Of a DNA stretch of 64,000 nt, positions 7,737-38,760 are shown one piece after another. The notes under the pieces are model-generated. The model worked only from the letters and a program-made list of their open reading frames with translations, was not told the DNA's origin and did no database searches. The stretch covers positions 1 to 64,000 of the forward strand of contig NZ_JAAHGH010000010.1 in the NCBI RefSeq assembly GCF_010672525.1, read 5' to 3'. This stretch comes from Okeania sp. SIO2B3. Lineage in GTDB: Bacteria; Cyanobacteriota; Cyanobacteriia; Cyanobacteriales; Microcoleaceae. The first letter of the stretch is position 1; each line of letters begins with the position of its first letter. A program made the position numbers and the translations under genes.

Positions 7737-8627
7737 TTAATCACCTAATAAATCATTTTTTATGAAAAAAGCTTCAATATTTTCATAAACTTTCAGATTT
7801 TGACTATAACTAAATTTTCCATGTCCACCCCCTGAAATAGTTAATAATTGATTCGGTACATTAGCTTGATTAAGTGCTTCGTGAAATTTCACGGCATGAT
7901 TATATGGCACACTTAAATCAGCATCGCCGTGAACAGTGAAAATTGGTGGGAGTTGAGAATGTACATAATTAATAGGAGAAATATTCTTGGCAATTTCCAA
8001 GCGATCGCTCTGGTTGCCCATCCATTCCAGAGCATAATCTCGAACATTAGGCCCCTCAAGTAAATCTTTAACATCTGTAATGCCATACCAATTGACGACT
8101 GCAGCTACTTTCAATTCCTGATCAGCAGAGGTAGGTAACATAGCAGTTGTCATAGCTAAATGGCCTCCAGCAGAAAAACCACTAACAATGATTTTTTCAG
8201 GATCGAAATTATACTTCTGGGCATTTTTTGTCGTCCAACCTAAAGCAGACTGACAGTCTGTTACTGCTGCGGGTGCTAAGGACTGTGCTGCCAAACGATA
8301 CCCCACATTCACAATGGAAAAACCCATTTTCAAATATGGCAATAAAAAAAGTAGTTCCACTTCTTTTGGACGGTCTACCCATCCTCCACCATGAATAAAA
8401 ATAACTACTGGGTGAGGTTTGTTTTTGAGAGACTGGTAAATATCTAATTTTAAATCGTAATTATTGACAGTCAAATATGTAATCTGTTTATGAATACGAT
8501 AGTTGTTAAAAAATGCCACGATTTCAGCAGCAGAATTTGACCATATTTTCCAAGTAATTCTTGGTAAAAAGTTATAGCCGAGAAATATTGCTTGATATGA
8601 TGTTTTAGATAGATAATTATTTAACAT
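7737..8627 (-). CDS. Alpha/beta hydrolase, carboxylesterase type
   Basis: 296 residues. The oxyanion motif HGGGW (about 80), nucleophile elbow GFSAG (about 151), acid in HGDADLSVP (about 235) and His in GGGHG (about 268) complete the catalytic triad, as in the HSL/BD-FAE esterase branch. It probably hydrolyses small esters; the substrate cannot be told. There is no convincing signal peptide. The start codon lies inside the terminal repeat of a MITE-like element (8622-8716), which must therefore carry its leader and any promoter up to 8716. Confidence 0.82.
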   Translation of the reverse strand: MLNNYLSKTSYQAIFLGYNFLPRITWKIWSNSAAEIVAFFNNYRIHKQITYLTVNNYDLKLDIYQSLKNKPHPVVIFIHGGGWVDRPKEVELLFLLPYLKMGFSIVNVGYRLAAQSLAPAAVTDCQSALGWTTKNAQKYNFDPEKIIVSGFSAGGHLAMTTAMLPTSADQELKVAAVVNWYGITDVKDLLEGPNVRDYALEWMGNQSDRLEIAKNISPINYVHSQLPPIFTVHGDADLSVPYNHAVKFHEALNQANVPNQLLTISGGGHGKFSYSQNLKVYENIEAFFIKNDLLGD

Positions 8628-12155: not shown

Positions 12156-12713
12156 TTGGATATTTTTGAGACTAATATAGAAATTCTTATAGAACCCCTG
12201 AGTGGTATCTTTGCACGAGATATGTGCTTTTGCTCCCAGTACTCAGTCCTGGTGAAGTCAGGAAATTCAGGAACGAGAATAGGGAAAACCTGTAGGGGCG
12301 AATGGCCATTCGCCCCCTACGAATCCTGAGGACTCCGTCATTTATTTATAAGTATTCAACCGGACATGATATCACATGACTAAAGTTCCAAGAGCGATCG
12401 CACTTTTTTGGACATTAAAAGTAAGAAGCGATCGCCTAGTTTTAATCTGGGCGATCGCTTTTCTAGTTGACTTTATTGTTTATCGTTTGTTCTAAATGTT
12501 ATCCATTGATTTTTGAGAAACAAGACACACCAGAGGTAAAAAGTAGTATAGCTATAAGCATTCAGCATTTCCTACGGAATGCTCCGCAAACATCATTCAG
12601 CTAGATTCAAAACTTTTAACTGTAATGTTTTGAAGTTTCTTAGCTTTCCTAATCTTAATACCTAGTGCATAAATTTATCCCAAAAAAAACTTGGGATAAA
12701 TAACACTCAAAAC
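12156..12713. repeat. Intergenic region: perfect palindrome, dispersed repeat, HIP1 cluster
   Basis: A 22-bp perfect palindrome (12295-12316) centres on GCGAATGGCCATTCGC. A dispersed repeat follows at 12326-12378 (CTGAGGACTCCGT, then TATAAGTATTCAACCGGACA); relatives lie at 30945-30990 and, inverted, at about 14860-14905. Three GATCGC-containing sites lie within 12395-12460. No gene seen. Confidence 0.65.
12673..12701. terminator. Hairpin between convergent genes
   Basis: ATTTATCCCAA and its complement TTGGGATAAAT form an 11-bp perfect stem around an A-rich 7-nt loop. It lies 12 bp beyond the stop of the minus-strand secreted protein, where convergent transcription from pepP also arrives, so it could terminate both. 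Confidence 0.6.
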
Positions 12714-33659: not shown

Positions 33660-33696
33660 TTCATTTTTTCTATCTTTAATTATTTTTGCCCACCTA

Positions 33697-33741
33697 TTGA
33701 CATACTCCCGGCGCTGAATTAAAAATTACAGCGCGGGATTC
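33697..33741 (-). ncRNA. TnpB right end with predicted reRNA 3' hairpin
   Basis: Just past the tnpB stop, read on the minus strand, CCCGCGCTG and CAGCGCCGGG form a stem (33707-33737) and the sequence ends GGGAGTATGTCAA at 33697. In TnpB systems the guide RNA scaffold covers this end and the guide is copied from the flank. The predicted guide here therefore begins TAGGTGGGCAAAAATA (33696 downward). Boundary inferred by analogy with known omega RNAs. Confidence 0.5.
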
Positions 33742-34998
33742 TCACACATCTGTGATTCTTGATTCACCGACACCACTTACTGCTTCAGGTTGCCCATCTA
33801 CAGCAGAGGTGGTAGTCTCCTCAAGCGTTCCCGAATAGTCGGAGGTTCCTGAATGCCCTTCAGTACCTTGATTCCACTCAATACCTATTATTTCTAATCC
33901 ACGCTTCAAGATGTTTCGTGCTGCGTTAGTATCACGACATATTTCAACATGACAGCTAGGGCAAACATGAGTACGAGTTGACAAAGTTTTCTTGACTCTA
34001 TGCCCACAATTAGAACAGTCTTGAGAAGTGAATTTGGGATTTACGGAGACAACCGCTTTGTCCCAAATTTTTCCATAATATTCTAGCCATTGAGTGAATT
34101 GATACCACGCTGCATCAGATATTGACTTTGCCAAATGATGGTTTTTGACCATGTTTTGTATCTTCAGGTCTTCATAGACGACAACATCGTTAGATGCCAC
34201 TACGCACCGGGCTTGCTTAATGCTCCAGTCTTTACGCTGTCTACTTACCTTCAAATGACATTTCCCCAGTCTTTTCCTAGCTTTATGGTAATTGTTTGAT
34301 TGAGGTTTCTTGCCCTTAACAAACTTTTTGCTTAATTGTCGTTGCCGACGTTTTAATTTTTTCTCTGACTTCCTTAAATATTGAGGATAAACAACTGCAT
34401 TATCATTTTGGTCTTTGTAGAAATATTTCAATCCTAAGTCAATACCGATAAAATTCCCAGTATAATTTCCTGGTTCTTTCCTATCAGCATCTATACAAAA
34501 TTGACAATAATAGCCATCTGCCCGTCTAACTATTCTCACCCGATTAATTTTTAATCTAAATAAATCTTCCCTTGTTTCTGAATCACAGTACAGAGAAAAC
34601 TTACCAGATTGAAACTTATCAGTAAAAGTTATAAACATACAATCATCTGATAATTTCCAGCCAGATTGTTTATATTCTACAGACCGACAATGCTTTTTGA
34701 ATTTAGGGTATCCCTTCTTTTTAACTCCTTCCTTACATCGACGATAAAAGTTACTAATCGAAGTCCAAGCTACTTCTACTGAGGCTTGTCTAGCTGATGA
34801 ATTTAATTTGTTTGCAAAAGCAAATTCACTAGCTAACTCTTTGCTCAGTTTGTATAAACGCGACTTATCTACTCCTTGGTTGTCTATCCAGTATCTAACA
34901 GCTTTATTTCTAATAAACTGTGCTGTCCGGATAGCTTCGTCCAAGGATTTATATTGATTTGAAGTCCCGTTTAATAGCTTGGCCTCTCTTACTAACAT
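33742..34998 (-). CDS. tnpB: RNA-guided endonuclease TnpB (IS200/IS605 OrfB)
   Basis: 418 residues, apparently intact. N-terminal helical HTH-like part (LDEAIRTAQFIRNKAVRYW), then RuvC motifs: Asp in IGIDLGLKY (about 190), Glu in VVVYEDLKIQNM (about 278) and Asp in EICRDTNAARN (about 360). The zinc ribbon is CSNCGH...CPSCH. A low-complexity tail (GTEGHSGTSDYSGTLEETT) extends past the usual end. No tnpA lies next to it, so any movement would need a transposase in trans. It sits between ubiB and the kinase-FGE gene. Confidence 0.92.
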   Translation of the reverse strand: MLVREAKLLNGTSNQYKSLDEAIRTAQFIRNKAVRYWIDNQGVDKSRLYKLSKELASEFAFANKLNSSARQASVEVAWTSISNFYRRCKEGVKKKGYPKFKKHCRSVEYKQSGWKLSDDCMFITFTDKFQSGKFSLYCDSETREDLFRLKINRVRIVRRADGYYCQFCIDADRKEPGNYTGNFIGIDLGLKYFYKDQNDNAVVYPQYLRKSEKKLKRRQRQLSKKFVKGKKPQSNNYHKARKRLGKCHLKVSRQRKDWSIKQARCVVASNDVVVYEDLKIQNMVKNHHLAKSISDAAWYQFTQWLEYYGKIWDKAVVSVNPKFTSQDCSNCGHRVKKTLSTRTHVCPSCHVEICRDTNAARNILKRGLEIIGIEWNQGTEGHSGTSDYSGTLEETTTSAVDGQPEAVSGVGESRITDV

Positions 34999-35186
34999 TT
35001 TTATCTTTTTTATTTTTATACTATCATTGCTTCACAAAATGATTTTCGCTATTTTTGGGGAGATGCAAGATATTTATATTTTTTTTGGAGCTTTCAAGAA
35101 TGATAAGGTAAAGATAGAAAATGGCATACAAGGATTCTGCCACGGATACACGGATGGATTGGACAAAGACAGAAAAGGGGAAGATC

Positions 35187-37094
35187 CTAGGAATGAAAGA
35201 CAGGCGAGATGACGCGAAAACCAAAATTTCTGAAGCAGAGGTCGATATTGCAGTTGTAGCGCTTGGCACTCCGGCAATCCCTAGAATAGCTCTCCCAGCT
35301 ACCGCCACGGAGAACTCTTTTATTAGTATCTCCTCCGGTTTCCCAAGCACCTCCATCCGTAGGCGCTCCATTATAATTACTATGCCAAATATCCTGACAC
35401 CATTCCCAGACATTGCCGTGCATATCATATAAACCAAGAGCATTAGGTGGAAAACTTCCCACATCAGTTGTTTGTTTTCGAGATTTACCTTTAGGAGCAT
35501 TGCCATAAGGGATAAAAGCATTGCAGTTAAGCAACTCAGGCATTACAGTTTCTCCAAAATAGAAAGGAGTAGTTGTACCTGAACGACAAGCATATTCCCA
35601 CTGACTTTCACTTGGCAAGGCGTAAGTTTTCCTAGTTTTCAGAGATAACTTTGTACAAAACTCTCTAACATTATGCCAGTTCACCTTTTGTACTGGTTGT
35701 ACTGGGCGGTTTCCTCCTCTTAAGCGAGAAGGATTTTCACCCATAATAGCTAAATATTGTTCTTGAGTAATAGAGTATTTGCTCATATAAAAAGGTTGGA
35801 GAGTAACTTGATGTTGCGGACTTTCATTAGAGTCTCTTTCAGCTTCATCTTCTGGCGAACCTATGAGAAAAATTCCCCCAGGAATATAAACCATTTCTAA
35901 TTTAATTCCATTACCTAAATCTTCTATTTTTTGCCTAGCACTTCCCTGGGTACGGTTAATAATATTGCCTGAGTTATCGACAGTAACAACATCAAAAGTA
36001 AATAGCTCTCCTTTGTCTGATTCTGCTGTTGATGGTTGAGATATTTGTGGTGGAGAAGTAAATTGTTGTTGTAGTTGAGTGGTAGGATCAATAATTGATG
36101 GTTGAGATATTTGCGATGGAAAAGTAGACTGTTTTTTTATTTGAGATTTAGGTAAAATAAGAAATAAAATTTCTCCTGTATTTTTCAACCTTTTGTTAGT
36201 TGCTCCAAGAATCATTTTATCCAAGATTTTTCCAACTTCATCACTCACACTCGACTTTAAATAATCTCGCCATATCCACTCACTTTCACTCACATCAAAT
36301 AAATTAAAAGGCTCTACTCCAGTTAATAAATGAATACAAGTTACACCCAAACTATAAATATCGCTAGAAAAAGTTGCTTTTCCTACTGCTTGTTCTGGTG
36401 CAACATATCCCGCAGAACCTATAACAGTTCCTGTTTTTCCTAAAGCAGTCATAGTGGCATATTTAGCTGCCCCGAAATCTACCAATATAATATTATTCTC
36501 TGGCGAGATAGAAGCTTGAACTGGATTAATTTTCTCTGGCGAGCTAGAAGCTCGCACTGGATAAAATTGATTATTATTCTTTCTCCTAATAATATTCTCT
36601 GGTTTAATATCTCGGTGAATTACCTGCTGAGAATGAATAAATTCCAACACGGGCAATAAACTTTTTAACAACTCCAAAATTTGACTTTCATCAAAAGCTC
36701 CCGATTCTTCTAATTCCTGTTGTAAATTTTGCCCGTCTATAAACTCTTGTACTAAATACTGTCGATTATCCTGAGTAAAATATGCCAAAAGTTCGGGAAT
36801 TTGTGGATGTCTACCTAAACCATCTAAACGTTCAGCTTCTTGAGCAAATAATTCAGCAGCTTTTTCTAAAGTTTTAGTTCCTTGTGCTTGAGGAAAAAAT
36901 TGTTTAATTACGCAAAAAGGTTTTGAAGGTTTGTATTCATCTACTGCTTGAAAAGTTCTGCCAAAACCTCCTTGCCCAATAATTTTTAGAGCGCGATAAC
37001 GTTCGGCTAAAACTAATTTTTCACCACAGCTTTGACAGAATTTTGTTTGTGGGGGGTTAGGTTTTAAACAGTCAGGATTTAAACATTGAGTCAT
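35187..37094 (-). CDS. Zinc ribbon-Ser/Thr kinase-formylglycine-generating-like fusion, probable DGR target
   Basis: 635 residues. A zinc ribbon (CLNPDC...CQSCG) at 4-24 leads into a kinase domain at about 32-310: GQGGFGRTF, Lys in CVIKQF, HRDIKPEN, DFG in LVDFGAAK, APE-like APEQ. An insertion between HRDIKPEN and DFG is encoded by two REP-like palindromes. After a Pro/Gln/Ser linker comes an FGE-sulfatase/C-type-lectin-like domain (about 395-635: MVYIPGGIFLIGS, WEYACRSG, HGNVWEW, RVLRGGSW). The final 35 residues use mostly NNC/NNT codons at surface positions, the mark of DGR variable regions. Confidence 0.88.
   Translation of the reverse strand: MTQCLNPDCLKPNPPQTKFCQSCGEKLVLAERYRALKIIGQGGFGRTFQAVDEYKPSKPFCVIKQFFPQAQGTKTLEKAAELFAQEAERLDGLGRHPQIPELLAYFTQDNRQYLVQEFIDGQNLQQELEESGAFDESQILELLKSLLPVLEFIHSQQVIHRDIKPENIIRRKNNNQFYPVRASSSPEKINPVQASISPENNIILVDFGAAKYATMTALGKTGTVIGSAGYVAPEQAVGKATFSSDIYSLGVTCIHLLTGVEPFNLFDVSESEWIWRDYLKSSVSDEVGKILDKMILGATNKRLKNTGEILFLILPKSQIKKQSTFPSQISQPSIIDPTTQLQQQFTSPPQISQPSTAESDKGELFTFDVVTVDNSGNIINRTQGSARQKIEDLGNGIKLEMVYIPGGIFLIGSPEDEAERDSNESPQHQVTLQPFYMSKYSITQEQYLAIMGENPSRLRGGNRPVQPVQKVNWHNVREFCTKLSLKTRKTYALPSESQWEYACRSGTTTPFYFGETVMPELLNCNAFIPYGNAPKGKSRKQTTDVGSFPPNALGLYDMHGNVWEWCQDIWHSNYNGAPTDGGAWETGGDTNKRVLRGGSWESYSRDCRSAKRYNCNIDLCFRNFGFRVISPVFHS
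35214..35310 (-). other. Candidate DGR variable region
   Basis: Between the conserved GGSW and GFRV codons, variable positions are filled by Ser, Tyr, Asp, Cys, Tyr, Asn, Ile, Leu and Phe. Most are encoded by NNC or NNT triplets (TAC, TGC, ATC, CTC, TTC), as expected when AAC/AAT codons of a template are mutagenised at adenine. The segment is clearly more GC-rich than the gene upstream of it. Template repeat and reverse transcriptase are not in the window. Confidence 0.6.
36497..36569. repeat. Two REP-like palindromes inside the kinase coding region
   Basis: CTCTGGCGAGCTAGAAGCTC plus GCACTGGAT (second copy; stem GCGAGCT/AGCTCGC at 36539-36555) and a degenerate copy exactly 36 bp away (from 36503) encode a 12-residue repeat, PVRASSSPEKIN and PVQASISPENNI, in frame. 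The same palindrome stands at 38881-38897 outside any gene. Confidence 0.7.
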
Positions 37095-37122: not shown

Positions 37123-37649
37123 GCGAGCATCTTGCTCGCCTATTTAATAATAATACCAAACCTGTTAGGAATTGAATTATGTTCTGGGAATTGAAATTAT
37201 GTTCTGGAAAAATTGAATTATCTTCTGGGAAAATTGAAATTATATTCTGGAAATTGAAATTGTGTTCTGGAAATTGAAATTATATTCTGGAAATTGAAAT
37301 TATGTTCTGGAAATTGAAATTATCTTCTGGGAAATTGAAATTATGTTCTGGAAATTTGAATTATGTTCTGGGAATTGAAATTATCTTCTGGGAATTGAAA
37401 TTATTTTCTAGGAATTGAAATTATGTTCTGGGAAAATTGAATTATTTTCTAGGAATTGAAATTATGTTCTGGGAAATTGAATTATTTTCTAGGAATTGAA
37501 ATTATGTTCTGGGAAATTGAATTATTTTCTGGGGAATTGAATTATCTTCTGGGAAATTGAAATTATATTCTGGGAATTGAAATTATATTCTGGGAATTGA
37601 AATTATATTCTGGAAATTGAAATTATATTCTGGCGAGCAAGATGCTCGC
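37123..37649. repeat. REPIN-like inverted REP pair enclosing a 20-bp tandem array
   Basis: The REP core GCGAGCATCTTGCTCGC (37123-37139) and its inverse (37633-37649) bracket about 23 units of roughly 20 bp, consensus TTCTGGGAATTGAAATTATG, with single-base variation and 19-21 bp lengths (37182-37630). The array has no coding frame. It separates the kinase-FGE start from the RAYT stop. Confidence 0.85.
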
Positions 37650-37677: not shown

Positions 37678-38148
37678 TTAATTATTCTGAAAATATGGGG
37701 ATGAATTTCTGTCTAATTCCCAGAAAAAAGGATATTCTTCTGGTTTATTTACTAATTCAGCTTTAACCTGGTTTTGTCTGATGTATTTCCAGACATCTAT
37801 CATTTCTTTTTGACTTTTAATTAATCTCTCATGTCGGCCATCTTGCCAAACTTTACCAATGTGTTTCATAACTTTAGGAATTTCCTTGGCACTATAGCCT
37901 TTAATACTATGCAGAATACTTCCAATTGACCAATATTCTGATTCTTGTTTGGGAAAAGGTATGATTAAACAATGTACATGATCTGGCATAATTACGACGC
38001 TCAAAATTTGATATCTTTGTTTGTGAAAAAATAAGAATGAATTTAAAACAATTTCCCGTGCTTCTGGGGTTAATTCTGATCTTTCCCAGGTGACAAATGT
38101 GATGAAATAAGTAGGTTCTATAAATTGAAATTTAGGAGATTTTTTCAT
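37678..38148 (-). CDS. REP-associated tyrosine transposase (RAYT, Y1/HUH)
   Basis: 156 residues. The HUH motif is HVH at 57-59 within VVIMPDHVHCLI; a probable catalytic Tyr lies in SIKGYSAKEI or WKYIRQNQVKAELV, and the C-terminus has the family KPEEYPFFWE. RAYTs are single-domain relatives of IS200 TnpA that recognise REP palindromes. The gene is intact and sits between REP-bounded arrays on both sides, the usual context. It is likely the enzyme that spread the GCGAGCATCTTGCTCGC palindromes in this region. Confidence 0.88.
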   Translation of the reverse strand: MKKSPKFQFIEPTYFITFVTWERSELTPEAREIVLNSFLFFHKQRYQILSVVIMPDHVHCLIIPFPKQESEYWSIGSILHSIKGYSAKEIPKVMKHIGKVWQDGRHERLIKSQKEMIDVWKYIRQNQVKAELVNKPEEYPFFWELDRNSSPYFQNN

Positions 38149-38159
38149 AATTTTGATGA

Positions 38160-38760
38160 TGATTTTTTCTACCCAGTGCGAGCATCTTGCTCGCGTATTA
38201 ATAATACAAAATTGATATAAATTTAATTATATTCTGGGAATTTGATGGTGATTTTTGCCTCCCAGTGCGAGCATCTTACTCGCGTATTAATAATACAAAA
38301 TTGATATAAATTTAATTATATCCTGGGAATTTGATGGTGATTTTTTGCCACCCAACACGAGCATCTTGCTCGCGCGTTTAATAATACAAAATTGATATAA
38401 ATTTAATTATATTCTGGTAATTTAATGGTAATTTTTTGCCTCCCAGTGCGAGCATCTTGCTCGCGTATTAATAATACAAAATTGATATAAATTTAATTAT
38501 ATTCTGGGAATTTGATGGTGATTTTTTGCCTCCCATCACGAGCATCTTGCTCGCGTATTAATAATACAAAATCGGTAGAATTTTTAATTATATCCTGGGA
38601 ATTTGATGGTGATTTTTTCCACCCAGCACGAGCATCTTGCTCGCGTATTAATAATACAAAATCGGTAGAAATTTTAATTATATCCTGGGAATTTGATGGT
38701 GATTTTTTTGCCACCCAGTGCGAGCATCTTGCTCGCGTATTAATAATACAAAACCAGGCG
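38160..38760. repeat. Seven ~90-bp tandem units each with a REP palindrome
   Basis: REP cores start at 38178, 38267, 38357, 38448, 38538, 38628 and 38720, i.e. every 89-92 bp. Each is followed by GTATTAATAATACAAAA, a TTTAATTATATYCTGGGAAT stretch and a TTGATGGTGATTTTTTGCC block. Units 3, 5 and 6 have ACGAGC in place of GCGAGC on the left arm, so the stem is partly lost in some copies. All units are in the same orientation. Confidence 0.88.

Follow-up and report, generated by a model that had tools for sequence, protein, structure and literature searches.

Diversity-generating retroelements (DGRs) act through an established pathway, in which an adenine-misreading cDNA of a template replaces the variable region (VR) of a target gene (PMC8867640). 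Targets in trans and roles of DGRs in conflict systems are described in PMC10907252. For cyanobacteria, Vallota-Eastman et al. 2020 (PMC7517822) reports kinase-CLec variable proteins that are remote DGR targets, IS200/IS605 transposases near nine kinase-CLec genes of six species, a remnant VR without a nearby reverse transcriptase (RT) in all3226 of Nostoc PCC 7120, and the proposal of an autoinhibitory or substrate-choosing role. Leftover DGR targets are also known from Treponema denticola strains without RT and template (TR), from which the loss of the DGR was inferred (PMC4891356). Our literature search found no paper joining Okeania and DGRs.

Here we analyzed a stretch of 64,000 nucleotides of Okeania sp. 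SIO2B3 (hereafter, the window) and found a gene that is likely to be a remote DGR target, orphaned by the loss of its retroelement. The gene lies on the minus strand (35187-37094) and, on the basis of its open reading frame (ORF) and of domain profiles, encodes a protein of 635 aa with a 4-Cys prefix, a Ser/Thr kinase and an FGE domain. The zinc-ribbon-like kinase prefix covers residues 3-27 (37014-37088, minus strand; NF045510, 36.4 bits, cut-off 24), and the protein kinase domain covers residues 33-303 (36186-36998, minus strand; Pkinase, 127.3 bits). The latter includes the protein kinase motifs HRD (residue 160 region) and DFG (residue 205 region). The FGE-sulfatase domain, of the C-type-lectin type, spans residues 400-629 (35208-35897, minus strand; 175.6 bits); by sequence, it is related to FGE enzymes and to the Treponema variable protein 1 (E 5.5e-23). 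The gene combines a C-type-lectin/FGE fold with a VR at its 3′ end, as a DGR target does. Modeling this domain with AlphaFold gave too low a confidence for the structure to be used (mean pLDDT 48, pTM 0.52), and the model was set aside.

Copies of a palindromic repeat form an in-frame insertion between HRD and DFG (36498-36564, minus strand), with 0 aligned bases in five relatives; the repeat has eight matches within the window, with none expected. Upstream of the gene there are two tandem arrays, one at 37166-37633 (20-bp unit, 23 copies) and the other at 38152-38753 (90-bp unit, 6.7 copies), which flank a gene for a REP-associated tyrosine transposase (37678-38148; NF047646, 98.7 bits).

The VR consists of 33 codons running from RGGSW to GFRV (99 nt, 35211-35309, minus strand), with RGGSW starting at residue 596, i.e., at window position 35309. 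The first-pass annotation had pointed to NNC/NNT-rich codons at the end of an otherwise AT-biased gene. Indeed, third-position C reaches 48% across the 33 VR codons vs 8% across the preceding 595, and among sliding 30-codon windows of the gene, which contain 2.9 NNC codons on average, the top five (15-16) all overlap the VR. The interval proposed there (35187-35310) was right; the 24 stop-proximal bases within it, which separate the end of the VR from the end of the ORF, correspond to a conserved 3′ anchor and are not variable. This anchor (35187-35208, minus strand) extends to the stop codon and shares 19 of 22 bases with the 3′ end of TR1, a template of the sister species Okeania sp. SIO2C9 presented below. 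Judging from sequence, it is placed like an IMH and could have an anchor function. No inverted repeat or hairpin following the VR was found in 35100-35330.

The first-pass annotation expected an RT and a template elsewhere in the genome. In the SIO2B3 assembly (10 Mb, 249 contigs, 99.85% complete), we detected neither a DGR RT nor a template. Using BPP-1 Brt as query, the best match in the assembly had an E value of 1.4e-13 and no DGR RT was retrieved; the best match to the Anabaena DGR RT was a 714-aa ORF, with 30% identity and an E value of 7.7e-28; the RT of SIO2C9 gave nothing at E 1e-50. The 714-aa ORF (G000:C216:13220-14050; L003 / L077), which is the best match of SIO2B3 to DGR RTs, appears by eye to join an RT to a Cas1-like part. 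A total of 16 RVT_1 matches are present in SIO2B3 and were considered as DGR candidates; those inspected resembled, by eye, group II intron RTs, an RT with a Cas1-like part and others. Since the inspection covered part of the 16, the absence of a DGR RT rests on the direct DGR-RT queries. As regards the template, the window VR, searched against SIO2B3, matched homologous 3′ termini in other FGE genes and no template, and TR1 with its leader gave nine weak matches, seven inside FGE genes and two of 17 bases, none of them a template. A template guessed from two SIO2B3 VRs retrieved only those VRs and weak matches, and was abandoned. The five PF05635 matches of SIO2B3 were rejected as Avd, none of their loci matching the SIO2C9 Avd at 1e-4.

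The search was extended to the genus, on five Okeania genomes (G000, the window's own SIO2B3, to G004, with G002 being Okeania sp. SIO2C9). A close relative of a cyanobacterial DGR RT was found in one of the five, SIO2C9, with 66% identity to the Anabaena sp. 90 DGR RT (E 9e-165). It lies on contig NZ_JAAHGO010000010.1, of which 14 kb were examined (L103), and belongs to a complete DGR, ordered as target with VR, TR1, Avd, RT, and TR2. TR1 is placed at L103:7199, Avd at L103:8014-8370 (NF033474, 137 bits, cut-off 80), the RT at L103:8358-9452, and the second template, TR2, at L103:9481. The target of this DGR consists of TPR repeats and an FGE domain, with no kinase. In its VR, 10 of the 30 TR1 adenines are changed, and none of the 69 other sites.

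We compared the window VR to these templates. Relative to TR2, 14 of 30 template adenines are changed, vs 13 of 69 other sites (p = 0.005, uncorrected, for the better of two templates, both of another species). Over 105 nt, the uncorrected p values for the adenine excess were 0.0043 with TR2 and 0.015 with TR1. As a control, the rest of the window FGE domain was compared to the SIO2C9 target gene, where 31 of 216 adenines and 81 of 447 other sites differ (p 0.91), and in none of 63 windows of 99 nt did the p value fall below 0.21. At the adenine rate of the FGE body, 14 or more changed adenines out of 30 have a probability of 2e-5, and the change at non-adenine VR sites equals the rate of the FGE body. 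Thus, the adenine excess is confined to the VR and sits on top of ordinary drift. We conclude that 35211-35309 is a DGR variable region, and that the first-pass annotation was right to see one here, in a filamentous cyanobacterium and in a kinase-FGE protein. With p values of only 0.005 (TR2) or 0.015 (TR1, over 105 nt), it is among the more decayed VRs.

Orthologues of the gene are found in a conserved neighborhood: both sides match at 91-96% in G002:C256 and G004:C5, and G003:C88 carries two tandem copies of the gene, with the downstream side matching at 97%. In comparison to the four orthologue copies, the window VR differs at 13/29, 17/29, 17/29, and 15/29 template-adenine sites (45-59%) vs 12/68, 11/68, 13/68, and 10/68 other sites (15-19%), with p values for the adenine-site excess from 5e-5 to 0.006. 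The aligned orthologue segments of G002, G003, and G004 each contain one in-frame stop, which suggests that not all the copies are intact. Two findings had been named in advance as speaking jointly against a DGR: the absence of an RT or template holds for the assembly, while the absence of adenine-derived differences to related copies does not, such differences being present relative to TR2 and to the orthologues.

The DGR origin is suggested by a VR length, a codon layout and a 3′ anchor like those of the SIO2C9 templates, by the template-adenine excess, and by the similar behavior of the orthologues. On this reading, a DGR present in the genus Okeania, now or formerly, would have acted in trans on the window gene as a remote target. 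The template RNA would be copied by the DGR RT, which would misread adenines, and the cDNA would overwrite the 3′ portion of the FGE-coding sequence, altering surface residues of the kinase-joined sensor. The FGE fold would display the varied residues on a face that binds a ligand, and this binding would make the kinase signal.

The first-pass annotation placed a tnpB element 188 bp downstream of the variable region; its ORF lies 188 bases beyond the end of the target gene, and the family model identifies an IS200/IS605-type TnpB (33742-34998, minus strand; NF040570, 243.6 bits, cut-off 100). Two relatives have nothing at the orthologous site that corresponds to the interval containing it (33695-35032); the tnpB downstream of the target gene is a lineage-specific insertion. 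The adjacent flank (35033-35147) is common to the orthologous loci of two relatives, at 95-96% identity, and is possibly an insertion hot spot. Between this flank and the gene, two relatives have 0.8-0.9 kb that are missing from the window. In G002 and G004, a 218-aa ORF separates the kinase gene from this flank; it is missing in the window (35147-35187). At the flank of the window's tnpB, G004:C5 (L185 6400-8870) has a different TnpB-like ORF, of 402 aa by eye, and G002 has no TnpB-like ORF over 75 aa.

We compiled VR-like regions from the five genomes (RGGSW...GFR-type pattern, no stops, at least 99 nt), obtaining 52 regions plus the two templates. SIO2B3 has 27 FGE-domain matches, of which 17 appear in this table. 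An adenine excess at p < 0.01 was found in 28 of the 52 regions and in 5 of the 17 of SIO2B3, namely C82, C157, C169, C35, and the window VR; C157 and C169 encode kinase-FGE proteins, and C35 a trypsin-like peptidase joined to an FGE domain. C82 is an orphan, truncated FGE gene of SIO2B3 (L010:641-739 / L067): compared to SIO2C9 TR1, its VR is changed at 13 of 30 adenines and at none of the 69 other positions, although the gene body differs from the SIO2C9 target at 45 of 206 other sites. At the body rate, the chance of 0/69 is 4e-8. The end of C82 was thus rewritten by a TR1-like template at a time when the gene had already diverged.

It could be argued that no retroelement is needed, and that diversifying selection on contact residues, together with recombination among many FGE paralogues, produced these regions. 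The 27 FGE-domain matches of SIO2B3 would provide the material, and exchange of domains is itself likely: in 60-nt blocks, the window gene matches its orthologues at 86-100% in the kinase start vs about 60-96% in the FGE domain (mostly 70-92%), and at 46-73% in the VR. Of the 52 VR-like regions, 24 have no adenine excess at p < 0.01. However, the changes follow template adenines rather than codons, as in the 13 adenine and zero other changes of C82; a fitting RT, together with Avd and two templates, is present in the sister species SIO2C9; and FGE paralogues in kinase-FGE arrays have VRs that are nearly unchanged between species (adenines 13/435, other sites 48/1020, in 15 between-species pairs), a comparison that is partly circular because the pairs, some of which overlap, had been chosen for their similar motifs. 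We regard an origin without a retroelement as very improbable.

These arrays (C112, C24, C66, and C212; L069, L170, L164, L166) combine a kinase with at least three tandem FGE domains. A further protein, of 2377 aa with five FGE domains (G000:C228:404700-413700; L070:4742-13679), adjoins an AAA ATPase-like ORF, and by eye this pair resembles the MoxR/vWA ternary systems that PMC10907252 mentions.

The neighborhood of the SIO2C9 DGR was detected in all five genomes. In SIO2B3 (C228), the match stops at L103:6515, within the FGE-coding part of the target gene, and starts again at 12184; the cassette is missing. Its place (L210:6109-8052, about 212600-214550) is occupied by a 450-aa TnpB-like ORF, which scores 39 bits with NF040570, below the cut-off of 100, and 33.7 bits with TIGR01766 (cut-off 32). 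G003 lacks L103:7117-9854 and G001 lacks L103:6983-9854. G004 retains the template leader, the first template bases, and the pieces L103:7510-7682 and 7939-7992, with no avd or RT.

The right-hand boundary common to G001 and G003 (L103:9855) led us to drop the idea of an independent loss in each of the four genomes; it would agree as well with SIO2C9 having gained avd-RT-TR2. According to such a scenario, SIO2B3, G001, G003, and G004 never had a cassette at this locus, and the window gene came in from elsewhere in a diversified state; the presence of the RT in only one of the five genomes agrees with it. The remains in G004, and the template leader in particular, speak instead for loss in that genome, DGR-type VRs are found in all five genomes, and the orthologues of the window gene sit in a shared neighborhood, so that we consider the gain scenario improbable. 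Loss of the SIO2C9-type RT also looks common more broadly: among 61 genomes of the family, it was found at 1e-50 in 14, eight near full length without stops and six partial or with stops.

A DGR could still be active in SIO2B3, with RT and template on a plasmid or small contig outside the assembly and the VR occasionally rewritten. Indeed, DGRs on cyanobacterial plasmids exist, the contigs that carry the DGR RTs of Okeania SIO2F4 and of two Trichodesmium MAGs measure 4.3-5.3 kb, such that a contig could be missed, and the unchanged non-adenine sites of C82 indicate that a TR1-like template acted recently, in the lineage or on that gene. Nevertheless, an assembly of this completeness yielded neither the RT nor a template, the homologous locus lacks the cassette, and the non-adenine sites of the window VR have changed at background level. 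On balance, continued activity seems unlikely. Orphaning by loss of the retroelement therefore stays our preferred explanation: with no RT or template, and a cassette-less homologous locus, the VR in SIO2B3 is probably no longer rewritten. Most likely, the window gene now preserves a single version of its sensor, fixed apart from slow drift, and the sensor that had been annotated as hypervariable seems to be an ageing remnant.

Tentatively, the genus might contain two tiers of sensors, some, like the window gene and its orthologues, with VRs that differ between species at template adenines, and others, in the arrays, with VRs that were diversified once and have since hardly changed from species to species, outliving a retroelement lost from most of the genomes searched; we hold this as possible, with some doubt. 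If true, a DGR would be a transient inventor of fixed binding specificities. A single genus offers an intact DGR, cassette-less loci, and targets that are freshly rewritten, decayed, or frozen, such that rewriting can be read backwards. This allows one to ask what becomes of hypervariable signaling proteins after the loss of their mutator, and whether selected versions persist. For annotation, it is a warning that a DGR-type VR does not imply an active DGR in its genome.

Among the described systems, the kinase-CLec proteins of PMC7517822 resemble the window gene in having a Ser/Thr kinase, a C-terminal CLec/FGE domain, and a 3′-end VR remote from the RT. They differ in that the SIO2B3 assembly yields no RT or template anywhere, and in that a cassette-less locus can here be set against its intact counterpart in SIO2C9. 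The Treponema denticola leftovers of PMC4891356 are alike in that their VRs differ from the templates of other strains mostly at adenines; the window case concerns a different phylum, a comparison between species and not strains, and a kinase-FGE protein. The Treponema denticola variable protein 1 (PDB 2y3c), compared by sequence only, shares the FGE-type fold, with an alignment that reaches the C-terminal GFR motif, and its aligned chain has no kinase domain. The DGR of SIO2C9 belongs to the same genus and has templates and targets that match the window VR; it differs in its complete cassette and in its own target, which joins TPR repeats, and not a kinase, to FGE. Since both kinase-FGE targets and leftover targets are already in print, the window gene adds an instance of a known phenomenon.
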